This document shows, one piece after another, positions 39,868-53,010 of a stretch of 64,000 nucleotides of DNA. The notes under the pieces are model-generated. The model was not told the DNA's origin. It did not search any database and worked only from the letters and a program-made list of their open reading frames with translations. Position numbers and translations under genes: made by a program. Every line of letters starts with the position of its first letter. The stretch's first letter is position 1. Source of the DNA: Niabella soli DSM 19437 (GTDB lineage Bacteria; Bacteroidota; Bacteroidia; Chitinophagales; Chitinophagaceae); assembly GCF_000243115.2 (NCBI RefSeq), contig NZ_CP007035.1, forward strand, positions 4,340,001 to 4,404,000. The letters run 5' to 3'.

Positions 39868-42726
39868 TTACCCAAACAACCATTCCACATCTTCCTGGCT
39901 GAGGCTTTTCATAAAGCCTTCATCCGTGCTGATAAGATCAGCGGCAAGGTTTTGTTTGCGCTCCTGGAGCCTGAGGATCTTTTCTTCGATACTATTGCGA
40001 CAGATCATCTTATAGGCAAAGACATTTTTTTGCTGGCCGATGCGGTGCGTGCGGTTGATAGCCTGCTGCTGCACCGCTTCGTTCCACCAGGGGTCAAATA
40101 AAAATACATAGTCGGCTGCAGTAAGCGTCAGGCCTGCGTTCCCGGCCTTCAGACTAATGAGGAAGAGGTTGGTGGTATTGCCGGGTTGTTGAAAGGTCTC
40201 CACCATTTGGGCACGTTGCGCCGGCGGGGTTTGCCCGTCAAAATGAAAATAAGAAATGTTGTTCTGATCGCAGGTTTCGGCTAAAAGATCCAGCATGCGC
40301 GTAAACTGGGAGAAAACCAATACTTTGTGTTGAGAGCGTATTGGCTCCAGTTCGTCAAACAGTATATTCATTTTTATAGCATCCGAACTAAAGGCGGCTG
40401 CCTCTTCCACCAGCAGCGGACTGTTGCAGATCTGTCGCAGTTTTAAAATTCCCTGCAATACGTTCAACTTACTTTTAGCAATGCCATTGGTTTTGATGCC
40501 TGAAAATACTTCACCACGGATCTGTTCCTTTACCTCCTCATAGGCGGCCCGCTGACTTTCGCCCATATCGCACCAAAGAATGGTTTCCATCTTTTCGGGA
40601 AGATCGGTGGCTACCTGCTCCTTGGTGCGTCTTAGTACAAAAGGCGCGATCAGTTTTTGTAATTGCTGTTGCTTCACTTCATCGGCATAGCGGTCAATAG
40701 GATCGGCGTATTCCCGCTTAAAAAACTCCCGGGAGCCAAAAAGTCCGGGCAATACGGTGTTTAGTTGCGCGTAAAGGTCAAATGTATTATTAACCACCGG
40801 CGTTCCACTTAATGCAAAGAAAAGATCGCCCCGCAGGTTGCCGACGGCCCGGGTTATTTTAGCCGCCGGGTTTTTTATATTATGACTTTCATCAATAAAA
40901 ACGACTTTATAAGGAATGACAGCGAACCGTTCTTCTGCCGCACGAAGCGTACCATAGCTGGTGATAATAACCTGTGCAGCCGGATCATCAATAGTAGCCG
41001 TGCGCTGTGCGCCGTGATACACGACAGTGCGTAAATGTGGTGCAAATTTTTTTAGCTCCTGCTCCCAGTTATAAATTAGTGAGGCCGGACATACAACCAA
41101 AGCCTGTGCCCCCGGGTGTTCTTCCAGTATTTTGGTAATAAAGCAGATCGATTGCAGCGTTTTGCCCAATCCCATATCATCCGCCAGGCAACCACCGGCG
41201 CCTGCTGCTGCCATCAGGCACAGCCAATCGTAGCCTTTTTGCTGATAGGACCTCAAACTTGCATTAATGGAAGCGGGCACAGGATGTACGGTCTGGCCCT
41301 GCTGCCACTGTTGCCAGCGTTGCCACCACGTCGTTACTTCCCCTTCTGTTGGGCGGCCGGTCTGTTCGGAAGCTTGCAAGGACAATTGCAGCCAGCGGGA
41401 AACAACCAAATGCTGTTTGGTGACTTTGCCATGTTTGATAAGCGTTGCGTATTGTTGCATCCAATCAGCGTTGAGCAATCCCAATGAGCCGTCTTTCAGC
41501 AATACGGCTGTTTGCCCGCCCCATAATACTTTTTGCAGTTCGGCTGTCGAAAGCGTTTCTTTTCCAAACTGCACGACTAATTTGTAGGTGCAGGAACGGC
41601 CGTCTTCCGTAACCAACTCCATATCGGTTTCAGGAAGATGTTGTGAGTAGCGGAAATGTTTTAACAGGTCCATGCCCGCCAGCTCGATGCCTGAAGTCAG
41701 CAATTGATGATAGGCCCTGGGAAACCATTGCCGTTTTTGGGCTTCGGCAAATGAAAGATAATAATAGCCCCTTTTTTGATCGGCGAATTTGGGGTGCAGG
41801 GAAAGCAGGAGGGTTGTTAATTTTTCTTCGGCAGCTTTATTCCGGGAAATGATCAGCGCGGTATCTTTTTGATGAATAGTGGTTTCAGGCTCCCAATCGC
41901 CCTCCACCAGCCAGCCATCGTACAGCCACTGCGGAGTGAACATTAAAAAAGAGTCGTTTAGCTCGCTTAGCAGCACGCGCGGTTGCGGCAACACCTCAAT
42001 TGTTTCCTTGCGTTCCCATTCATTACGGTTTACAGGGTATTTATCCTGTAAGGTGTCCAATATCAGACCCAATTGATTTTTATCTTTGAATTGACTGTAA
42101 TGGAGCAATTGTGCTTCCAGCCAATCCAGTGTTTGTGCATCGCGGAGCGGAAGAAAATAATAGTTGTTGTCTTTTTGGATGAAGAAGGCATCCCGTTGAA
42201 AAGCGTTCAGCGGATAATCTGAATTCTTTAATTCAATGATTGTTTCGATAACATAATGCGCATCTTCCCTCGCCACATTAAATTTAAGGAAGGGGCGTTC
42301 CATGCAGAGTTGGCAAGGCGCCGTAATCATTCGCCCCCCTGCCCCCGGGTAGGTATGGTACCATTTAATAGTACCCATAAAAGGCTTCAGTTCCCGGAAC
42401 AGATCATATTGATGCCGGATTAATTCTTTTTTTTGGAAAGCAGGGTATGCTAAATCATTTTGTTGCGCATCATATAATTGTTTAATGGGGACCGTTGTTT
42501 TCATCATCGATTCCTCACTAAATAAATTAAAGAGTTTTAGTAGCTTATCCGGTAGCCTGCCGAAGGCTCCTATAGCAAGCCGGGAATTGATGGGTTCTGT
42601 TTTATATACTGGCGGATGAATGGTTTTATCTACCGTCAGAATTTGTAATAACCCTTTCTTTTCACCGGTTTTGCCGGGTGATAATAGTAATGCGCTTGTT
42701 TTTTGATCTGTTATGCTCGGCTTCAT
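39868..42726 (-). CDS. SNF2-family DEAD/DEAH-box helicase-like ATPase
   Basis: A 952-residue SNF2/RapA-type ATPase. The start is set at the ATG at 42726 (MKPSITDQKTSALLL); a GTG at 42774 is also in frame. The long N-terminal half (about 1-500) is specific to the bacterial group and contains CQLCMERPF. The helicase core has motif I ADDMGLGKT with K522, motif II DESH at 612-615, motif III LSGTPVVNN, and the C-terminal lobe with FSQFTRMLD, KAGNAGLTLTAADYV and QAINRTHRIGQ. These proteins are DNA translocases that strip or remodel bound proteins such as stalled RNA polymerase; the role here is not known. Family call is firm. Confidence 0.93.
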   Translation of the reverse strand: MKPSITDQKTSALLLSPGKTGEKKGLLQILTVDKTIHPPVYKTEPINSRLAIGAFGRLPDKLLKLFNLFSEESMMKTTVPIKQLYDAQQNDLAYPAFQKKELIRHQYDLFRELKPFMGTIKWYHTYPGAGGRMITAPCQLCMERPFLKFNVAREDAHYVIETIIELKNSDYPLNAFQRDAFFIQKDNNYYFLPLRDAQTLDWLEAQLLHYSQFKDKNQLGLILDTLQDKYPVNRNEWERKETIEVLPQPRVLLSELNDSFLMFTPQWLYDGWLVEGDWEPETTIHQKDTALIISRNKAAEEKLTTLLLSLHPKFADQKRGYYYLSFAEAQKRQWFPRAYHQLLTSGIELAGMDLLKHFRYSQHLPETDMELVTEDGRSCTYKLVVQFGKETLSTAELQKVLWGGQTAVLLKDGSLGLLNADWMQQYATLIKHGKVTKQHLVVSRWLQLSLQASEQTGRPTEGEVTTWWQRWQQWQQGQTVHPVPASINASLRSYQQKGYDWLCLMAAAGAGGCLADDMGLGKTLQSICFITKILEEHPGAQALVVCPASLIYNWEQELKKFAPHLRTVVYHGAQRTATIDDPAAQVIITSYGTLRAAEERFAVIPYKVVFIDESHNIKNPAAKITRAVGNLRGDLFFALSGTPVVNNTFDLYAQLNTVLPGLFGSREFFKREYADPIDRYADEVKQQQLQKLIAPFVLRRTKEQVATDLPEKMETILWCDMGESQRAAYEEVKEQIRGEVFSGIKTNGIAKSKLNVLQGILKLRQICNSPLLVEEAAAFSSDAIKMNILFDELEPIRSQHKVLVFSQFTRMLDLLAETCDQNNISYFHFDGQTPPAQRAQMVETFQQPGNTTNLFLISLKAGNAGLTLTAADYVFLFDPWWNEAVQQQAINRTHRIGQQKNVFAYKMICRNSIEEKILRLQERKQNLAADLISTDEGFMKSLSQEDVEWLFG

Positions 42727-42835
42727 CTGCTTCCTGTTGTTGTCCTGTTCCCATTGGAGGTTGGGAAACCGCACAAGATAGAAAAAGATGCTGAGCCGCG
42801 GGTAAAATAAAAAGGACGGGGCTGAAATATTGCTT

Positions 42836-42925
42836 CATACTATTGTTCCTCACAGATTCCGCAGATTTGCACAGATCATAAAAGCCTTCTGTGAGAATCC
42901 GTGCAATCTGTGAGCTCCTCTTCTG
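42836..42925. repeat. Intergenic word repeat, ATCTGTGAG / GCAGATTTGCACAGA type
   Basis: The left arm TCACAGATTCCGCAGATTTG and the right arm AATCCGTGCAATCTGTGAG are loose reverse complements around TAAAAGCCTTC. The arms read like the 62210-62282 block (CTGTGCAAATCTGCGGAATC). It lies between the 5' region of the SNF2 gene and the stop of the carboxylate-amine ligase gene. Confidence 0.5.
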
Positions 42926-44038
42926 CTACTGTGCACCCTCTAAAAAGCTTTCGCTGATATACCTTCCCACATCGGTCAGGTTTTTGGTTTGTTCAAAGAT
43001 CGCCAACTGCCGGTCTGCCCCCGTGCCCCGTTCTAAAATTTTATGCACATAATCGATGCGGTGGCGACTGCCCAGGTGATCGATAACAGGGTCCAGGAAA
43101 TCGAGCAATTCATAGATCAGGGCCCGGGTGTTTACTTCTTCTTCCTTTCCAAAATCGATCAGGTGCCCATCGATACCATAGCGGCTTGCCCGCCATTTGT
43201 TTTCATTAATCAGCGGGCGTGAATATTGAATATAGTTCATATTCTTGCTGCGCAACATATAAATACGCGCGCAAACTGCCTGGAACAAAGCTGCTATCGC
43301 GATGGTTTCATCCACCGTCATCGGTATATCGCAAATGCGAAATTCAACAGTATTGAAAAAGGGGTGTACCCGCAGGTCCCACCAGATCTTTTTGGCATTA
43401 TCGATACAATTGGTTTTGATGAGCATTTTCACGTAGTTGTCATACGCTTCAATGCTTTCAAAAGCATCGGGTATGCCCGTTCGGGGAAATTTATCAAAAA
43501 CCTTGGTGCGGTACGATTTATAGCCCGTGGTTCTTCCTTCCCAAAAGGGGGAATTGGTGCTCAGTGCAAAAATATGCGGCAGGAAATAACGTGTTGAATT
43601 TGCGATGTGATTGGCCAGCTCCCGGCTTTCCATGCCCACATGCACGTGCAGGCCGAAGATGAGGTTACTGCGGGCAGCCTCCTGGAGCTCGTTTACAATT
43701 TCGTTATAGCGGATATGATCGGTGATCAGTTGTTTTTCCCAATGGCTAAAGGGGTGGGTGCCCGAAGCGCCCAGGGTAAGGTCAAGCGACCCGGCAATAT
43801 CGGAGATGGTCTTTCTCAACAACGAAACATCTTTGAACGCTTCGTCAATGTCCTGGCAGATATCAGTACCAACTTCCACTACAGCCTGGTGCATTTCCGC
43901 CTTTACCTTATCCTTGATGATCTTTTGTCCCTCCTGTACAATGCGCTGCTCGTGGCTCTTCAGCTCAAAGGTATCCTTATCCAATACCATGTATTCTTCT
44001 TCTACCCCAAGGGTGAATGTTTTATAATTGATGCTCAT
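42926..44038 (-). CDS. Carboxylate-amine ligase (GCS2 / YbdK family)
   Basis: A 370-residue member of the GCS2 glutamate-cysteine ligase family, of the YbdK-like group. Landmarks are the ATP/metal segment GVEEEYMVLD near residues 11-20, LGASGTHPFSHW, FGLHVHVGM and the arginine-rich substrate region RVHPFFNTVEFRICD. Such enzymes join an amino group to a glutamate-like carboxylate at ATP cost; YbdK itself has weak gamma-glutamylcysteine activity. It is followed on the same strand, with a 122-base gap, by an ATP-grasp gene upstream in transcription, and an esterase lies divergent beyond that. The three may form a small-peptide pathway. Family call is firm; substrate unknown. Confidence 0.88.
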   Translation of the reverse strand: MSINYKTFTLGVEEEYMVLDKDTFELKSHEQRIVQEGQKIIKDKVKAEMHQAVVEVGTDICQDIDEAFKDVSLLRKTISDIAGSLDLTLGASGTHPFSHWEKQLITDHIRYNEIVNELQEAARSNLIFGLHVHVGMESRELANHIANSTRYFLPHIFALSTNSPFWEGRTTGYKSYRTKVFDKFPRTGIPDAFESIEAYDNYVKMLIKTNCIDNAKKIWWDLRVHPFFNTVEFRICDIPMTVDETIAIAALFQAVCARIYMLRSKNMNYIQYSRPLINENKWRASRYGIDGHLIDFGKEEEVNTRALIYELLDFLDPVIDHLGSRHRIDYVHKILERGTGADRQLAIFEQTKNLTDVGRYISESFLEGAQ

Positions 44039-44039
44039 T

Positions 44040-44160
44040 TTATTAATGTGAGAATGTGAGAATGTGAAAATGTGGGAATTTGAGAATGAATTGATTTTTG
44101 TAAATGTGCGTATTTATTTGAACGAGCGCATAATTATCACATTACCACATTTTCAAATTT
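44040..44160. repeat. Intergenic word repeat, GAAAATGTGGGAATTTGAG type
   Basis: The left arm has ATGTGAGAATGTGAGAATG and TGTGAAAATGTGGGAATTTG. The right arm has TCACATTACCACATTTTC followed by AAATTTTCAAATTAG. The arms are loose reverse complements around a TGAACGAGCG loop, giving a stem-loop between the ATP-grasp gene and the carboxylate-amine ligase gene. Confidence 0.55.
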
Positions 44161-45108
44161 TCAAATTAGTCTTCCGGCGCTTTCCTTCACATACCTCCCC
44201 CAGGTAAGGTTGTCGGTGCCCGGCTGGTTGGCCTGTGCCTTTTCTATTGCATAGTTAGCGGCCGTTTCCACTACCCATTCAAAATTTTCAGCGCCCACGC
44301 TTTTGATATCGGCATCCGGCGCCGGGTTACAAAAGTCAATGGCATAAGGCACGCCGTTCCTCAGCGCCAGTTCCACCGTATTAAAATCATATCCTAAATA
44401 ACTGTTGATCTTAAGAACGATCTCAGTCATTTCCTGTAATTTTTCCGGTGTCGGAGAGAAGTCGGCTACATAACGCAGGTGATGGGGGTTACGGGGTTCG
44501 TAAGGCATAATGCGCACATATTTTCCGCCGATGCAATAACAGCGATAATACTCTTCAAATACAATTTCTTCCTGCAGCAGCATTACCAGTTGGCCGGTTT
44601 CCCGGTGCTTTTCGAAAAATTCTTCTTTATCATTTAATCTGTACACATGCTTCCACCCGCCGCCTGCGAAGGGTTTCATATAAGCGGGAAATCCTACTTC
44701 ATTAAAGATCGCTTCCCAATCCAAAGGATAGGCCAGGTTGCTGAATGAGGAATCAGAAGTATCGTCGGGGTGCTCATTGGAAGGGATGATGGCGGTTTTC
44801 GGAACCGGAACGCCTATCTGTGTCATCAGGCAGTTGTTAAAATACTTATCGTCTGCGCTCCACCAAAAGGGGTTGTTGATCACCGCAGTACCCGTGAGTG
44901 CTGCATTCTTTAACCAGGTGCGGTAGAACGGAACATCCTGGCTGATGCGATCAATGATCACACTGTAACCCGATGGCTGGCCCTGCAATGCCTTATCGAT
45001 CCGAACGGGCTCGGCCATGATACCCTCTATATTTTTGCTGTTCACCCGTTGTACAAATGCTTCGGGAAATGAACGCTCTTTTCCAAAAAGAATTCCGATT
45101 TTTTTCAT
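44161..45108 (-). CDS. ATP-grasp family ligase-like protein
   Basis: A 315-residue protein with an ATP-grasp core: an N-terminal Rossmann-like domain (MKKIGILFGKERSFPEAFV), then DKYFNNCLMTQIGVPVPKT, the lysine strand FPAYMKPFAGGGWKHVY, LLQEEIVFEEYYRCYCIG, and the metal-binding end VELALRNGVPYAIDFCNPAPD. The fold resembles RimK and glutathione-synthase-like ligases that form amide bonds through acyl-phosphates. It precedes the GCS2-family gene on the same strand, so the two ligases could act in order, as gamma-glutamylcysteine ligase and glutathione synthetase do. Substrate unknown. Family call good. Confidence 0.78.
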   Translation of the reverse strand: MKKIGILFGKERSFPEAFVQRVNSKNIEGIMAEPVRIDKALQGQPSGYSVIIDRISQDVPFYRTWLKNAALTGTAVINNPFWWSADDKYFNNCLMTQIGVPVPKTAIIPSNEHPDDTSDSSFSNLAYPLDWEAIFNEVGFPAYMKPFAGGGWKHVYRLNDKEEFFEKHRETGQLVMLLQEEIVFEEYYRCYCIGGKYVRIMPYEPRNPHHLRYVADFSPTPEKLQEMTEIVLKINSYLGYDFNTVELALRNGVPYAIDFCNPAPDADIKSVGAENFEWVVETAANYAIEKAQANQPGTDNLTWGRYVKESAGRLI

Positions 45109-45354
45109 TTTTTATTTTTTTAATGGTCAGAGATGTTTTTAATGGAACAGAAAAGTCTCTGGCTCCTTTCGGTTATTTAATTTTTTAACAGGTGAAGATA
45201 AAAAGAGCAGTCGGTGAATGTCTTCATTAATGCCGCTTTCAAAGGCATCGTATTTATGACAACTATTCAATTGTCAATATAAGCCATTCCGTATTTATCC
45301 GCAAAAAAATATTATAGGCTCAGGAAATTCCAGATCCGGAAACCGGTATTTTAT

Positions 45355-45362
45355 TATTTTTG
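45355..45362 (+). promoter_or_regulatory. -7 promoter element directly before the esterase gene
   Basis: TATTTTTG fits TAnnTTTG and ends 5 bases before the ATG at 45368, again implying a leaderless or nearly leaderless transcript. The 259-base gap to the divergent ATP-grasp gene shows nothing else clear. Confidence 0.35.
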
Positions 45363-45367
45363 AGCGG

Positions 45368-46189
45368 ATGAGTATCGTTAATGAATTGGACTATCGGGTA
45401 GAAGGGGCATTGTTTACCTCCACCTGTCTGAAAAGGGATGTTATCCTGGATTTTTACCTGCCCACAGGCGTGGAAGATTTGTCGGAGCTCAGTCTTTTAC
45501 TGATCAACGATGGACAGGACCTTCAAGCGATGGATTTTAAAACGATTCTTTCTGATCGCTATTCCGGCGGAGCGATTGGCCCCGTGCTTTGCGCCGGTAT
45601 TACAGCAGGCGCTGATCGCAAACGGGAATATGGCGTTGCCGCCACCACTGATTATTTGGGGCGGGGCGACCGGGCAGGTAGCTATACAACTTTTATTATT
45701 AATGAACTGCTGCCGTTTATTGCTGAAAAATACAATGTAAAAACATTCAGGGATAAGGCCTTCGCCGGTTTTTCGCTCGGCGGCCTTAGCGCCCTGGATA
45801 TTGTATGGAATCATCCGGAGGTATTCTCAAAAGCGGCCGTTTTTTCGGGATCATTATGGTGGCGGAGCATCGATCAGGACGATCCGGCCTATGACGATGA
45901 CAAGGACCGCATTATGCAACAACAGATCCGCAACGGTGCCTATGCGCCGGGGTTGAAATTTTTCTTACAATGCGGCTTATTGGATGAAGCTCAGGATCGC
46001 AACAATAATGGTATTATCGACGCCGTGGACGATACCCGTGATACTGTAGCAGAACTTATGAAAAAAGGGTACCAGCCTGAAGATCTTTTTTATCTGGAAC
46101 TGGACGAGGGTAAGCATGACGTGGCTACCTGGGGCAAGGCGATGCCGGTTTTCTTGGAATGGAGCTGGCCGGGAGGAAATCAAAAATAA
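45368..46189 (+). CDS. Alpha/beta-hydrolase-fold putative esterase (esterase D type)
   Basis: A 273-residue cytoplasmic alpha/beta hydrolase of the putative-esterase (PF00756) type; no signal peptide. The nucleophile elbow is GFSLGG with S136, the catalytic His is probably H250 in EGKHDVATW, and the acid lies between them, likely in the Asp-rich stretch near residue 220. Members hydrolyse formylglutathione, siderophore esters or acyl thioesters. It is divergent from the ATP-grasp/GCS2 pair; a link to their product is possible. Family call is firm; substrate unknown. Confidence 0.85.
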   Translation: MSIVNELDYRVEGALFTSTCLKRDVILDFYLPTGVEDLSELSLLLINDGQDLQAMDFKTILSDRYSGGAIGPVLCAGITAGADRKREYGVAATTDYLGRGDRAGSYTTFIINELLPFIAEKYNVKTFRDKAFAGFSLGGLSALDIVWNHPEVFSKAAVFSGSLWWRSIDQDDPAYDDDKDRIMQQQIRNGAYAPGLKFFLQCGLLDEAQDRNNNGIIDAVDDTRDTVAELMKKGYQPEDLFYLELDEGKHDVATWGKAMPVFLEWSWPGGNQK

Positions 46190-46484
46190 TAAATAAAGAA
46201 TATAAAATGTAGAAGTGGCTTCCAGGATTATGATTCCGTTCAATTCACTGATATATCGTTTTCGCAACAGACCCTGGTTTTAGAATGGCATTAAATTCCG
46301 ATGGTTTTACATTTAAAATTCTGAATTTAATATTTTCAATTGCGAACCACTCTATAGCGGCGCAAGCTTTGTAGAAAAATGTTTCACAAATGATTTGGCG
46401 TGCCGTAGGTGCGCCACGGCAATGCGAAATAATTAATGTTTACATTCGTAATTCAAAATTCGATATTTTATATTTTGCATTCCA
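46190..46484. repeat. AT-rich intergenic word-repeat block before the YyaL-type gene
   Basis: Gene-free 295 bases with words AATAAATAAAGAATATAAAA at the start, TACATTTAAAATTCTGAATTT in the middle, and GTAATTCAAAATTCG followed by TATTTTATATTTTGCATTCC up to the next ATG. The first and last words are loose reverse complements. The promoter of the next gene must lie here; TATATTTTGC near 46469 is one base from the -7 consensus. Confidence 0.45.
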
Positions 46485-48548
46485 ATGTCTAATCATCTTA
46501 TACACGAAACAAGCCCGTATTTATTGCAGCACGCGCATAACCCGGTGGATTGGTATCCCTGGGGAGAGAAAGCCTTGCAAAAAGCAATTAATGAGGATAA
46601 GCCCATCCTGGTAAGCATCGGCTATGCAGCGTGTCACTGGTGCCATGTAATGGAACGGGAAAGTTTTGAAGATGCAGCAACGGCGGCCCTGATGAACGAA
46701 CATTTTATCAATATAAAGGTAGACCGGGAAGAACGCCCGGATATCGATCATATTTATATGGATGCGGTGCAGACCATGACAGGAAGTGGTGGCTGGCCGC
46801 TGAATGTTTTTCTTACGCCGGATAAAAAGCCTTTTTATGGCGGTACCTATTACCCGCCCGTATCCTATGCCAATCGCCCCTCCTGGAAAGACGTGTTAAC
46901 GGCAGTGTCGGATGCTTTTCAAAATAAAAGAACGGCGATTCAGCAACAAGCCGAAGGACTAACACAACAACTGGTGGATGCCAATTCGTTTGGGATCGGT
47001 GACGGATCAGGGGCGGATTTTCTGCGGGATGAGGTGGATGCAGCCTGCTCAGCTATTTTAAAGCAGGCCGATACTAGTTGGGGCGGTTTTGGCCGGGCGC
47101 CTAAATTTCCGCAAACCCAAACGATCCGGTTTCTTTTGAGGTATCATTATGCTGAAAAGGATCGTCCTGATAGCTTTGCCGATAACGCCCTGCAGCAGGC
47201 ATTGCTGAGTCTGGATAAAATGATGGAAGGAGGGATTTATGACCAGGTGGGCGGGGGCTTTGCGCGTTATGCAACGGATACTGAATGGCTGGCGCCCCAT
47301 TTTGAAAAAATGCTTTATGATAATGCATTGCTGGTCGTTACTTTAAGTGAGGCCTACCAGGTTACCCGGGATGAACGGTATCGCGGCTGCATTGAGCAAA
47401 CAATCGCATTTATTGAACGGGAGTTAACGGATGCCAGCGGTGGATTTTACGCAGCCCTGGATGCAGATAGCGAGGGAGAAGAAGGTAAGTTTTATGTATG
47501 GAGTAAAAAAGAAATAGAGGAACTGCTACGGGAAGATGCCGACCTGTTTTGCCGTTATTATGATATAACCGAAAGCGGGAACTGGGAGGGGAAGAATATC
47601 CTGAGAATCCTGACTCCGTTGAAAGAATTTGCTGCAACGAACGAGATCAATGAAACCCTACTGGAGGCGCTGTTGGAAAAAGGGCGGCTGCAATTGCTTG
47701 TTGCCAGGGCACACCGGATCCGCCCGGCATTAGATGATAAAATAATTTTGGGGTGGAACGCGCTCATGAACACTGCGTACAGCAAGGCTTTTGAAGCCAC
47801 CGGCAATGAGGCTTATTTGCAGCGGGCTACGGATAATATGCGGTTTCTGCTGAATGCTTTTGAAAATACAGACGGCAGTTTTGCTCATGTGTGGAAAGCG
47901 GGCGTTGCAAAGTACCCGGCATTTTTAGATGACTACGCCTATCTTATAGAGGCCCTCCTGCAGTTGGCGCGCGTAACGGCCGATTACTCTTATCTGGAAA
48001 AGGCGCGGGCGTTGTGCCAGGGAATACAGGAACATTTTGCTGAATCCGAAACGGGCTACTTCTTTTACACGCCCCAAAACCAGGGGGATGTTATTCTTAG
48101 GAAAAAAGAAGTGTATGATGGCGCCACGCCATCAGGTAATGCAGTGATGGCGGCTAATTTGTTGCACCTATCGGTATGTTTTGATTTGCCGGAATGGCGT
48201 GTGCAAGCGGAGCAAATGATTGTGCAACTGGCAAATGCGATCATAAAATATCCAACCTCTTTTGGCGCCTGGATGCTGGCTTTTTATAGGGTGCAGCAGG
48301 GGAGCAAAGAGATAGCATTGATAGGTGATTATAAAAGCAGTTTGCAGGAATTACTGCACCATTTTTTACCCGGTGCAATTATTATGGCGGGGCCGAACGC
48401 CGATGCACACTATCCTTTATTGGCTGATAAGCGGGCCGGAAACCCTTTGCTGATCTATCTTTGCGAGCACTATGCCTGCCGGCAACCGGTGGATAACCTT
48501 ACCGAATTGTTTAACCTGTTAAAAATGCATGATAATGGAAGGGTATAA
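46485..48548 (+). CDS. Thioredoxin-domain protein of the YyaL / DUF255 family
   Basis: A 687-residue protein. The N-terminal thioredoxin-like domain (residues 1-160) opens with [21 protein letters not shown] and contains the CxxC site C50-H-W-C53 in AACHWCHVM. An (alpha/alpha)6-barrel of the glycosidase or epimerase type follows, with [22 protein letters not shown] and [11 protein letters not shown]. The family (human SPATA20) has no firmly assigned reaction. The last codons overlap the start of the DUF1543 gene by 14 bases. Family call is firm. Confidence 0.92.
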
Positions 48549-49101
48549 ACTATTTTACCTGTTGCTGGGGTGCACTCCTCCCGGGAGACATACAGAACAG
48601 CATGATGTGTTTTTTTGTATTGGCAAAAGCCTGGCCGAACTTGTTCCACACATCCATGCGTTCTGGCCGGAAGCGGAAGGCAAGATTCACATCGATGCCT
48701 GGCGGGAAGTAAATACCGTAAAGGGTTATAAAATAAGTGTAACAGCACGTGGAACGCAGGCGCCAAAATCAGCGCAATTGTTTTTTATAAACCTGGGAGG
48801 CTACCAACCGGGAGTATTTGAAGAATACCATTATAAATTACTGGCGGTGGCAAAGAACCTCGGCGAGGCCGTACAACAGGCAAAACAAACTTCTTTTTAC
48901 AAGGAATACAACGCCGCAGCGCAGGCAGCAAGTCATGTTGATAATAAATACGGCGTGGATGTAGATGAAGTGTTTACGGTTGAAGACATCCTGCCTGCCG
49001 CGCAAAAAAAGCAATTTGCCCTAACCCTGCAGCAGGAAGAACAGCTAACAGAAGATACCTTGCGTATCGGCTATTTAAAATTGTCGAAACTGGAAGTTTG
49101 A
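48535..49101 (+). CDS. DUF1543 family protein
   Basis: A 188-residue soluble protein; the ATG at 48535 ([25 protein letters not shown]) fits the family better than one two codons earlier. DUF1543 features are [18 protein letters not shown], a repeated half-domain with IDAWREV and KGYKISV, and [20 protein letters not shown]. The function is unknown. The start overlaps the end of the YyaL-type gene, so the two are co-translated. Family call good. Confidence 0.8.
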
Positions 49102-49134
49102 TCCTTTTTTAGGATGAACGCCTAAATCCAAAAG

Positions 49135-49345
49135 CGGCCATCCCGATAGCTATCGGGACACGAATGAATAAGCTAATGGAGGTGTTTTCAAAGAAAACAG
49201 ACACGAATATTACGCGCCTTTGACGCACTTTGTGGCCCGCAGATTACGCATCCCGATGGCTATCGGGAGCGCCGATGGCGCGGCGCGGATTACACTTCAT
49301 TTTTCTGCGAAAGTTTGCTCCCGATAGCCATCGGGATGCGGGAGA
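49135..49345. repeat. Cluster of TCCCGATAGCTATCGGGA palindromes with a perfect 24-bp inverted repeat
   Basis: Three copies of the word occur: 49141-49158 (self-complementary over all 18 bases), 49251-49268 and 49319-49336. Positions 49247-49270 and 49317-49340 are perfect reverse complements over 24 bp with a 46-base spacer that contains its own CGCCGATGGCGCGGCGCGG stem. This is a REP-like element after the DUF1543 gene; the same CCCGAT..ATCGGG core ends the element at 26111-26682. Confidence 0.7.
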
Positions 49346-49665
49346 CTTTTTTGGCCACTGATCTGTAGGAATCATTTTCGTTGTATCCTTAAATCATGCT
49401 GCAACCCTCCGCCTCTGGAGGATTCGTGGCATTCGACAATAGCATTACAGACATTAAATTGGCATACGATACCAGCCATTTTGTTCGTCCACCCCGGATC
49501 CTTTTTTCAAGGTTTGAGCTGCTGACCGGTCAGGAGGCCGGTCCCTGTTGCTTTTGCTGAATTTATCCACAACTGTGCATATTTAGCACTGGGAAACATG
49601 GCTTTGCTAAGGTAAATTCGTTAACCACACATGGTTTCTAAACTTAACCAACCAAACGTAAAAAT
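49346..49665. other. Upstream region of the ribonucleotide reductase gene, no gene seen
   Basis: Positions 49524-49543 form a perfect 6-bp stem (GACCGG/CCGGTC) with loop TCAGGAGG. It looks superficially like the cobalamin-riboswitch B12 box, but the other conserved parts of that riboswitch are missing. CTCCGCCTCTGGAG near 49409 is a second small hairpin. No -7 consensus close to the start was identified. Confidence 0.4.
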
Positions 49666-52600
49666 ATGGCGCCATCTAAAAAACAAAACCACAAAGGCCT
49701 GAGCTTTACCAGGAAGTATACTCAGGAAGGAATGAGTCCCTACGATCAGTTTAAATATGATTTTCGTACTTCTGTGATCAAGAACCCCAGCGGCGAGGTG
49801 GTCTTCCAGATGGATGATGTGGAGGTTCCTCAGCAGTGGAGCCAGATCGCAACAGATATATTGGCGCAGAAATATTTTCGCCGGGCAGGCGTGCCGCAAG
49901 CCGATGGCACAACCGGCAGGGAAAAAAGCATTAAACAGGTAGCGCACCGCCTGGCCCATTGCTGGCGCATGTGGGGTGAGCGGTATGATTATTTTGCATC
50001 TGCCGGAGATGCACAGGTTTTTTACGACGAGCTGGTGTATTCTATCTTGAATCAATCCTGCGCGCCCAACAGCCCGCAATGGTTTAATACCGGTTTGCAT
50101 GAAGTATATGGAATAAGTGGCAAGCCCCAGGGGCATTATTTTGTGGATCAGCGGGACGGGCAGTTAAAAAAGTCAACATCGGCTTACGAGCGGCCGCAGC
50201 CGCATGCCTGTTTTATTTTAAGTGTAGAGGACGACCTGGTGAATGATGGCGGTATTATGGATCTGTGGGTGCGGGAAGCACGCATTTTTAAATATGGCAG
50301 CGGTGTGGGCACCAATTATAGCAGCATCCGCGGTGAGGGCGAAAAGCTCAGTGGGGGTGGCACTTCCAGCGGGCTGATGAGCTTTCTTAAAATAGGCGAT
50401 CGTGCCGCAGGGGCCATTAAGAGCGGCGGCACTACCCGCCGTGCAGCCAAAATGGTTTGCCTGGACCTGGATCACCCGGAAATTGTGGATTTTGTAAACT
50501 GGAAAGTGGAAGAAGAAAAAAAGGTAGCGGCTCTGATTGCTGCCGGTTATTCTAACGATTATGAAGGCGAAGCTTATCGCACGGTAAGCGGGCAAAACAG
50601 CAATAATTCGGTTCGCATTCCTAATGCATTTTTTAAGGCATTAGCGGAAGAGGGCGACTGGGAATTAAAAGCCCGGAGCACCGGGAAAACGATGCGCACG
50701 GTTAAAGCTAAAGACCTGTGGGATCAGATCAATTATGCCGCCTGGCGTTGTGCGGATCCGGGTACCCAGTTCGATACAACCATCAACGAATGGCATACCT
50801 GCCCGGAAGGCGGCCCCATCCGCGCCAGCAACCCCTGCAGTGAGTATATGTTCCTGGATAATACGGCTTGTAACCTGGCCAGTGTAAACCTGCGCAAATT
50901 CTTTAATGAAACGGATAATCTTTTTGATGTATCGGGTTTTGAATACACCTGCCGTCTTTGGACGGTGGTGCTGGAGATCTCTGTATTGATGGCACAATTT
51001 CCCTCAAAAGAAGTAGCGCAACTGAGTTATGATTACCGCACGCTGGGATTAGGGTATGCCAATATCGGCTCGATGCTGATGGTAAATGGTATTCCTTATG
51101 ACAGTGATGCAGCGCGCGGGATTGCCGGAGCCATTACGGCTATTATGACCGGTGTTGCGTATGCTACCTCTGCGGAGATGGCAGCTAACCTCGGCGCCTT
51201 TCCAAAATACGAAGAAAATAAAACGCACATGTTGCGGGTAATGCGCAACCACCGGGCTGCGGCTTATGATGCTGGTGAAGCTTATGAAGGCATCCAGATC
51301 AACCCCCAGGGAATTAATGCCACCTATTGCCCGGATTATTTATTAACCGCCGCAACCAAAGCCTGGGATAATGCGGTACAGTGGGGCGAGCAACATGGGT
51401 ACCGCAATGCGCAAACCACTGTTATTGCGCCCACGGGAACCATTGGCCTGGTAATGGATTGTGATACCACAGGGGTAGAACCTGATTTTGCATTGGTGAA
51501 GTTTAAAAAACTAAGCGGTGGTGGGTACTTTAAAATTATTAACCAAAGTGTGCCGCAGGCCTTGCGCAGATTGGGCTATAATGAGAGCGAATCCGAAGCC
51601 ATTGTCAACTATGCAAAAGGCCATGCTACCTTAAATGAGGCTCCCTATATCAATAGGGATACACTCATCGCCAAGGGCTTTACCGCAGCAGAAGTGGATA
51701 AACTGAACGCCGCCATGGCAACAGCCTTTGAAATTTCTTTTGCTTTTAATGTGTTTACGCTTGGGGAAGCCTGCTTGCAGCGCCTGGGATTCAGCCCCGA
51801 TCAATACAATGATTTTAGTTGGAATATGCTGAACGCCCTGGGTTTTTCAGATAAAGAAATTGAAGCCGCTAATATCTATGTGTGCGGTACCATGACGATT
51901 GAGGGCGCGCCTTATCTGAAAGAGTCCGACTATCCTGTTTTTGATTGTGCCAATAAATGCGGGCAAACCGGCCAACGCTATATTCATGCGCACGGTCATA
52001 TCCGGATGATGGCGGCTGCACAACCCTTCCTGAGCGGGGCGATCAGTAAAACCATCAACCTGCCTAATGAAGCAACGGTGGAAGAAATCGCAGATTCTTA
52101 TAAATTGAGTTGGGAGCTGGGGCTGAAAGCCTGTGCGTTGTACAGGGATGGCTCTAAACTAAGCCAGCCTTTGAGCAATAAAGCCGACACCAAAAAACAG
52201 AAGGAAGCCACGGAAGAAGTTATAGCCGAATCGCCCATTGTTGATTTGGGAAAACTGACGATTGATGAATTACTGGAGGAAGTGAACCACCGGGTGCAGA
52301 ACAGCAAAGACACTTCTTTAAAACGCCAACTGGCAATGATCGTTGAGCGGCGCTCGCTTCCGGCTAAACGCAGGGGCTATACCCAGAAAGCAAAGATCAA
52401 CGGCCAAACCCTGTTCCTGCGTACCGGGGAATATAGTGATGGTACTTTAGGCGAGATCTTTATTGACATGGCAAAGGAAGGCGCTACCATGCGGAGCATG
52501 CTCAACTGTTTTGCAATCGCGGTTTCTATAGGTTTGCAATACGGCGTTCCCCTGGAAGAATTTGTAGAAAAATTTGTATTTACCCGGTTTGAACCTGCGG

Positions 52601-53010
52601 GAATGGTGCAGCACCCCAATATAAAATCGACCACATCCATTATTGATTTTATGTTCCGTGCGTTGGCTTATGAATATCTGGGCCGTGCAGACCTGGTGCA
52701 TGTGTTGGATAAACCAAACGAGACTGTCTTGGAGGATGAGGTGGATAATGATGAAGCGTGGAGTGAGCGTACGCCAACAATTGGCGAAAGGGTGCCGGAG
52801 TTAAGTGAAGTAAGAGTGGTGGGACGCGTGGCACCCAAACCCGAAGTGGTAGCACACACGCATGTGCATAACGGCCTGGACGCCGTTAACAAGGCAGCAG
52901 CTTCCATGCAATCGGATGCGCCGGCCTGCAATGTTTGCGGACATATTACGGTAAGAAGCGGTACCTGTTATAAATGTATGAACTGCGGCAATAGTTTGGG
53001 TTGCAGTTAA
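49666..53010 (+). CDS. nrdJ: Adenosylcobalamin-dependent (class II) ribonucleotide reductase
   Basis: Reduces ribonucleotides to deoxyribonucleotides using a thiyl radical generated from adenosylcobalamin; it works with or without oxygen. The 1114-residue protein has the redox pair C132 ([13 protein letters not shown]) and C402, and the radical Cys391 in NPCSE with N389 and E393, spaced like characterised NrdJ. Other hallmarks are [13 protein letters not shown] and [21 protein letters not shown]. Residues about 900-1020 are an extra C-terminal domain, and the end is a zinc-ribbon-like CNVCGH then CYKCMNCG. A terminator follows. No B12 riboswitch was confirmed upstream. Family call is firm. 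Confidence 0.95.

Follow-up and report, generated by a model that had tools for sequence, protein, structure and literature searches.

The 64,000-nucleotide stretch of the Niabella soli DSM 19437 chromosome analysed here (contig NZ_CP007035.1, positions 4,340,001 to 4,404,000; hereafter the window) carries a gene for a ligase of the GCS2/YbdK type (GCS2), an ATP-grasp gene (GRASP) and an esterase gene side by side. In our reading, these genes encode two ligases and one hydrolase of an amidoligase pathway of Bacteroidota which has at least four, probably five, members and makes a gamma-glutamyl-type product, and we put the probability of this reading at about 0.6. It is based on the linkage of the genes, which is conserved, on their co-occurrence, on candidate active-site residues kept within each family and on predicted folds; from these we infer the reaction steps. 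The other two members are a glutamine amidotransferase-like gene (GAT) and a gene for a putative ligase (UNK3). The earlier note on this DNA, made from the sequence alone, had proposed that the three window genes make a small peptide-like compound; an amidoligase pathway of that kind is indeed the best reading, as part of a larger set that includes GAT and UNK3.

Relatives of GRASP were collected by scanning genome contigs, which yielded at least 576 confirmed cases, and the best 80 of these are referred to as near loci (L and G numbers below denote loci and genomes, respectively; G000 is the window genome). The titles of 79 of these best 80 name Bacteroidota taxa, and one reads 'uncultured bacterium'; on the basis of these titles, the phylum sampled below is taken to be Bacteroidota. 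GCS2 lies 24 to 751 bp after GRASP in 78 of the 80 near loci, and in the two loci without it the contig ends 705 and 189 bases past GRASP. The divergent esterase gene is found 116 to 477 bp from GRASP, likewise in 78/80; one of the other two loci begins at a contig edge, and L013 lacks the gene. Since 78 of the 80 near loci keep GCS2 and 78 keep the esterase gene, the grouping is not due to chance. The trio is conserved together in near and distant loci, a point on which the earlier note had made its proposal depend. In the five nearest loci showing a ribonucleotide reductase gene (PF02867; L002 to L006), GCS2 and GRASP are 95-98% and 90-96% identical to those of the window, respectively, and the reductase and the esterase 86-95% and 73-89%. 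Judging by these values, GCS2 and GRASP seem to be under unusually strong selection. GRASP is present in 70 of 98 genomes of the window's own family. Spread on plasmids was looked for in 72,556 plasmid records, none of which matched GRASP at E 1e-5.

Distant loci were represented by 60 neighbourhoods picked for breadth from 134 GRASP-positive genomes, of which 57 had a called GRASP open reading frame (ORF). ORFs of at least 80 residues were clustered across the 60 distant and 80 near loci (140 loci), and this clustering brought out GAT and UNK3 as two further recurrent genes. In many distant families, the genes lie on one strand in the order esterase, GRASP, GCS2, GAT, UNK3. Among the 57 distant loci, 32 have GCS2 within 1.5 kb downstream of GRASP, 30 have UNK3 and 22 have GAT downstream at a distance of up to 9 kb on the same strand, and 16 have all three. 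By the same definitions, of the 79 near loci in which a GRASP ORF was called, and whose contigs often end early, 74 have GCS2, 14 have UNK3, 18 have GAT and 14 have all three. The median gaps in distant loci, calculated from pairs between -200 and 600 bp only, were 26 bp for GRASP-GCS2 (n = 32), 43 bp for GCS2-GAT (n = 18), 15 bp for GAT-UNK3 (n = 19) and -1 bp for GCS2-UNK3 (n = 7). These gaps are operon-like.

Other genes are also seen within or beside the set. Eight of the 80 near loci contain a Uma2-type putative nuclease gene (PF05685, annotated on the L059 copy), which is inserted between GRASP and GCS2 in L014, L016, L030, L034 and L046 and is also present in L041, L059 and L065. Annotation of the L049 copies (L049:11616-14906) identified a recurrent amidohydrolase gene (PF07969), present in 17 of the 140 clustered loci, and a recurrent amidase gene (PF01425), present in 8. 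In several cases they lie between GCS2 and GAT, and they may be part of the pathway. In L118 to L120 (family f4) and L125 (f5), an M17 leucyl aminopeptidase, an extra ATP-grasp ligase (PF13535) and an esterase stand beside the set; the former two were annotated on the L120 copies.

Co-occurrence was evaluated in a sample of 395 Bacteroidota genomes, in which GCS2, UNK3 and GAT were counted as present at E <= 1e-10. GRASP was found in 134 genomes, each with a best E < 1e-50, GCS2 in 129, UNK3 in 114 and GAT in 86. The GRASP-GCS2 pair is shared by 114 genomes, just under a third of the sample (phi coefficient 0.80), GRASP and UNK3 by 110 (0.84), and GCS2 and UNK3 by 109 (0.86), and all four genes are present in 64. 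Counted by families with at least one positive genome, GRASP occurs in 36, GCS2 in 33 and UNK3 in 26, and all 26 UNK3 families carry GRASP and 25 of them GCS2. The four families having GCS2 without GRASP contain distant GCS2 copies (33-40% identity). The genes also co-occur when unlinked: in G137, a genome consisting of one contig, 260 kb separate GRASP from GCS2 and 745 kb separate it from UNK3. Divergent GRASP relatives with 33-41% identity were seen in G014, G181, G251, G376, G444, G456 and G476, genomes without GCS2 or UNK3 matches, and these are possibly paralogs with another job.

GCS2, a single-copy gene in the window genome, scored 193.7 bits against PF04107 (cut-off 21) and exceeded the cut-offs of both NCBIfam models of its group, PRK13515 (513.4 vs 371 bits) and TIGR02050 (289.1 vs 176.4 bits). 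It thus belongs to the YbdK/PRK13515 group, and residues 7-339 of its 370 align to Escherichia coli YbdK (1r8g). On the other hand, it fell below the gamma-glutamylcysteine ligase equivalogs TIGR02048 (gshA_cyano; 63.8 vs 249.05 bits) and TIGR01436 (plant-type; 19.7 vs 463.15 bits). The gene context also differs from that of YbdK: E. coli ybdK adjoins ybdJ and ybdF, with no ATP-grasp or glutamine amidotransferase gene annotated in the 10 kb examined, whereas window-type GCS2 is tied to GRASP and UNK3. In an alignment of 104 of the 109 cluster members that passed a length filter plus the window's own sequence, E13, E15, E48, H131, H133, R177, R186, D221, R223, E232 and R234 are invariant (105/105), and W220 is present in 104/105. 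The family motifs GVEEE, H-V-H and W-D-x-R, which we take to function in metal and substrate binding, are all found.

GRASP had no Pfam match. It scored 35.4 bits against the RimK family model TIGR00768, far below the cut-off of 143.4 bits, and weakly matched TIGR02144. Its AlphaFold model, which like that of UNK3 was built from an alignment of locus sequences, has an ATP-grasp fold (predicted local distance difference test score [pLDDT] 76.6, predicted template modelling score [pTM] 0.75). The best match was RimK (5zk6; Foldseek E 5.4e-12; Z 16.9, root-mean-square deviation [rmsd] 4.0 over 262 residues), followed by ArgX, PsnB and LysX at Z 14-15.5. The likeness to RimK, LysX and ArgX thus lies in the predicted fold (Z 14-17) and the two weak family matches; GRASP differs from them in its low RimK score, in an identity of 14-17% over the aligned fold and in that no LysW-like partner was seen nearby. 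K145 and E246 (132/134 each) and D258 and N261 (131/134 each) are conserved in an alignment of 133 of the 136 cluster members plus the window's own sequence, and by eye we equate them with the catalytic Lys and the acidic and Asn metal ligands of RimK. A glutathione synthetase identity for GRASP was considered and rejected: the predicted fold is RimK-like, the profile found no PDB sequence at E <= 1, and the single sequence found only matches at E 0.094-1.

UNK3 is a protein of about 395 residues. No Pfam or NCBIfam model matched the L073 copy at E <= 0.1, and none in Pfam matched the window genome's own copy at 0.01. The AlphaFold model of the L073 copy (pLDDT 75.1, pTM 0.79) gave 20 first Foldseek matches at E 1.4e-13 to 6.5e-8, all of the glutathione synthetase/glutathionylspermidine synthetase (GspS) kind, and a 21st at E 0.21. 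These were glutathione synthetases (GSS), nematode glutathione-synthetase-like effectors, GspS, YgiC, YjfC and Cp1B. In VIA-align, where trypanothione synthetases joined them, the first 25 entries had Z 23.3 to 17.4 and the 26th Z 6.0. The best structural match was the peptide-spermidine ligase YgiC with ADP (Z 23.3, rmsd 3.5 over 327), and YgiC was also the sole match of the UNK3 sequence profile among PDB sequences (E 0.022). D94, E111, Q113, K265, K298, Q329, E348 and R350 are conserved in 44/44 sequences. UNK3 is therefore predicted to be a ligase of the eukaryotic-type glutathione synthetase/glutathionylspermidine synthetase fold. Its model aligns over the whole length with GSS, GspS, trypanothione synthetase, YgiC, YjfC and Cp1B (Z 17-23), but at 8-14% identity and without sequence-level family membership. 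Unlike GspS, it has no amidase domain (396 residues vs about 600 in GspS chains).

Profile comparison detected no similarity between UNK3 and GRASP. The earlier note had reasoned from glutathione synthesis, with the adjacent ATP-grasp protein as the counterpart of glutathione synthetase. The analogy holds in spirit, since the genes appear to form a ligase pathway, but the partner was named wrongly: the closest folds of GRASP are RimK and ArgX/LysX, and the look-alike of glutathione synthetase is UNK3. In four distant loci, from genomes without UNK3, a family of about 450-475 residues (c43; L138:8955-10367, L140, L150, L165) takes the place of UNK3 beside GRASP and GAT. It is weakly like the circularly permuted ATP-grasp type 2 family (20.9 bits vs a cut-off of 32, L150 copy), and its profile comparison with UNK3 gave a probability of 6%.

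GAT has a class-I glutamine amidotransferase fold (PF00117, 24.9 vs 22.8 bits, window genome's copy), and its Cys-His-Glu triad (C110, H213, E215) is present in 45/45 sequences. In L139, L151, L158, L164 and L166, an M29 aminopeptidase gene (PF02073 on the L158 copy; the other four assigned by clustering) lies between GCS2 and UNK3, in the place that GAT takes in relatives, and none of these five genomes carries GAT at E 1e-10. Since an M29 aminopeptidase takes the place of GAT in these loci, the five cases suggest that GAT may act as a hydrolase and not as an ammonia donor.

The window esterase has PF00756 as its sole Pfam match (90 bits, cut-off 22). Its best NCBIfam match, enterochelin esterase, was below the cut-off (43 vs 222 bits), and no formylglutathione hydrolase model was among its NCBIfam matches at E <= 0.001. 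The formylglutathione hydrolase-like character suggested before was therefore not borne out, and only the general PF00756 assignment stands. The loci contain two esterase types, which clustering merged although they are barely similar (28% over 74 residues): type A, of about 235 residues, is encoded inside the operon, and type B, that of the window, divergently. A type B esterase 44% identical to the window's holds the same divergent place in L115, from another family. In the merged cluster mixing both types, S136 and H250 are each conserved in 115/117. The window genome encodes a homolog of the type A esterase, a candidate ortholog, at G000:C1:283739-284449 (33% identical, E 1.8e-36). The residue alignments include the window genome's own sequence, off-length rows were dropped, and the rows for GRASP, GCS2 and the esterase come mostly from near loci. 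Each of the five families thus conserves candidate active-site residues; presumably, as expected for these families, they include those that bind metal or substrate.

The proposed pathway is as follows. GCS2 would link glutamate, through its gamma-carboxylate, with an amine or amino acid, and UNK3 and GRASP would each attach a further residue or amine through acyl-phosphate chemistry, the carboxylate activation expected from the ligase families. GAT, or the M29 aminopeptidase instead in some families, would turn over or process the compound by hydrolysing an amide, and the esterase might take off a part bound through an ester or amide. With two or three amide bonds, the expected product would be an oligopeptide or peptidyl-amine of the gamma-glutamyl type, distinct from glutathione. 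Iyer and colleagues (Mol Biosyst, 2009) reportedly predicted amidoligase operons combining ATP-grasp and glutamine-synthetase-fold ligases with peptidases. While the enzyme kinds are known, their combination is apparently undescribed in the literature searched, which mostly did not extend to subscription journals: no description was found in the parts covered, including those of PMC4431377, PMC2922099 and PMC2588565.

Several observations weigh against this reading. In the window genome, GRASP, GCS2 and the esterase gene alone are adjacent; UNK3 (G000:C1:868567-869757, minus strand) is 3.5 Mb from the window by record coordinates, and GAT (G000:C1:1368565-1369410, plus strand) also lies outside it. 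GAT is more loosely associated (phi 0.59-0.71) and absent from 45 of the 114 UNK3 genomes, and G098 and G103, which have GRASP-GCS2-UNK3, show neither GAT nor M29 at the locus, contrary to a fixed five-step scheme. Of the 395 genomes, 20 carry GRASP but not GCS2, 24 carry GRASP but not UNK3, and 15 carry GCS2 but not GRASP. Since these genes sometimes occur without each other, the members may be replaceable or the pathway variable. Kinship among genomes enters the co-occurrence through the family counts only. Confidence in the GRASP and UNK3 models is middling (pLDDT 75-77), and that of UNK3 comes from a relative (L073) which shares 59% identity with the copy in the window genome. Moreover, a predicted fold would indicate the reaction class, not the substrate.

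The partial dispersal of the genes, in the window genome as in others, would also fit mere neighbours with unrelated jobs. This explanation is very improbable, being contradicted by phi values of 0.80-0.86 in 395 genomes, by the operon-like gaps and by co-occurrence of the genes while unlinked. A glutathione-like thiol, for which GCS2 would make gamma-Glu-Cys, UNK3 add a residue and GRASP extend the product, has the logic of glutathione synthesis on its side, as the set contains one GCS2-class and one GSS-fold ligase and UNK3 matches glutathione synthetase entries at up to Z 21.8. By its title, a 2004 paper also reports gamma-glutamylcysteine ligase activity for the relative YbdK. We nevertheless consider such a thiol unlikely. 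The set has a third ligase and a glutamine amidotransferase-fold enzyme beyond the glutathione pathway, and GCS2 scores far under the TIGR02048 and TIGR01436 cut-offs. The bacillithiol synthase BshC is over the cut-off in the window genome and was matched in 291 of 296 phylum genomes, a smaller draw than the 395, with 285 over the cut-off. A search for GshB (TIGR01380) at E <= 0.001 found nothing in the window genome, while it matched 8 of 14 control genomes, 3 of them over the cut-off. Since BshC is near-universal in the phylum sample and present here, and GshB was not found here, a main-thiol role for the pathway, and with it the analogous new thiol suggested in the earlier note, is less likely. 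In a published census, Bacteroidetes are credited with genes for bacillithiol and not for glutathione, and N-methyl-bacillithiol was found by chemistry in one Bacteroidetes strain and bacillithiol genes in others (PMC6282198).

The pathway might instead serve polyamine conjugation, a less likely alternative in which GCS2 forms a gamma-glutamyl amide, UNK3 couples a polyamine with a peptide as YgiC/YjfC do, and GAT hydrolyses the amide like PuuD, which is a hydrolase of a gamma-glutamyl amide. YgiC and YjfC are the top structural matches of UNK3 (Z 22.6-23.3), and YgiC is the single protein in the PDB reached by its profile. PMC12568646, citing a 2023 paper, terms both enzymes peptidylpolyamine synthetases. 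However, GspS and glutathione synthetase come within 1-2 Z of YgiC, so the fold cannot choose between an amine and an amino acid, and the recurrent neighbour families that were annotated, some having been left unannotated, include no polyamine enzyme. Modification of a protein or carrier protein is quite unlikely. Here, GRASP would act on a tail like RimK or LysX/ArgX, and the other ligases would build or trim a tag. RimK and ArgX/LysX, on which GRASP models best, act on protein substrates, and PDB titles name the pairs RimK-RpsF and ArgX-LysW. Against this explanation, 190 small ORFs (25-79 residues) within 1.5 kb of the set in distant loci included no LysW-like carrier; a substrate could be encoded elsewhere. 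In addition, no GCS2- or GSS-type enzyme is known to us to modify proteins, although PafA, a relative of these enzymes, does so. The single recurrent family in that scan, a Cys-rich membrane-like peptide of 52-53 residues, lies downstream on the UNK3 side of the set in three loci of one family (L115, L116, L117) and may be a FeoB-associated peptide.

Within the preferred reading of a gamma-glutamyl amidoligase pathway, the product could, as a speculative case, resemble trypanothione or glutathionylspermidine: a gamma-glutamyl peptide that UNK3 caps with an amine or amino acid and GRASP extends, existing beside bacillithiol, with its own hydrolase and under very strong selection. If true, this would be an undescribed cofactor-like compound widespread in Bacteroidota. 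With GCS2 conserved above ribonucleotide reductase in the five nearest loci that show the latter, a compound of such weight in a major phylum would be worth identifying.

The features of the window locus are listed in Table 1. The three genes are at the places and on the strands given in the earlier note, whose coordinates are right, yet cover only part of the system. According to the ORF list, GRASP is upstream of GCS2 with a gap of 122 bp.

Table 1 Features of the amidoligase locus in the window
Feature	Position	Strand	Size	Basis or remark
GCS2, YbdK-type carboxylate-amine ligase, PRK13515 group	42926..44038	-	370 aa	ORF and family models
GRASP, RimK-like ATP-grasp amidoligase	44161..45108	-	315 aa	ORF and predicted fold
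Divergent intergenic region between the GRASP/GCS2 pair and the esterase gene	45109..45367	.	259 bp	Presumed site of both promoters
Esterase, PF00756 alpha/beta-hydrolase, divergent type B	45368..46189	+	273 aa	ORF and Pfam

The intergenic region was searched with TAnnTTTG, a Bacteroidetes-type promoter pattern. The sole match stops 5 bases short of the start codon of the esterase gene, and the other strand has none; a promoter of this type was therefore rejected for want of a convincing match. An Rfam scan of positions 42000-47000 gave no RNA family at the gathering score. Beyond the esterase gene, at 46485-53010, a DUF255/thioredoxin-like (Thioredox_DsbH) gene and a DUF1543 gene overlap each other and precede a gene for a class II ribonucleotide reductase, and this gene order is preserved in the Niabella relatives L002 to L004 and L006.

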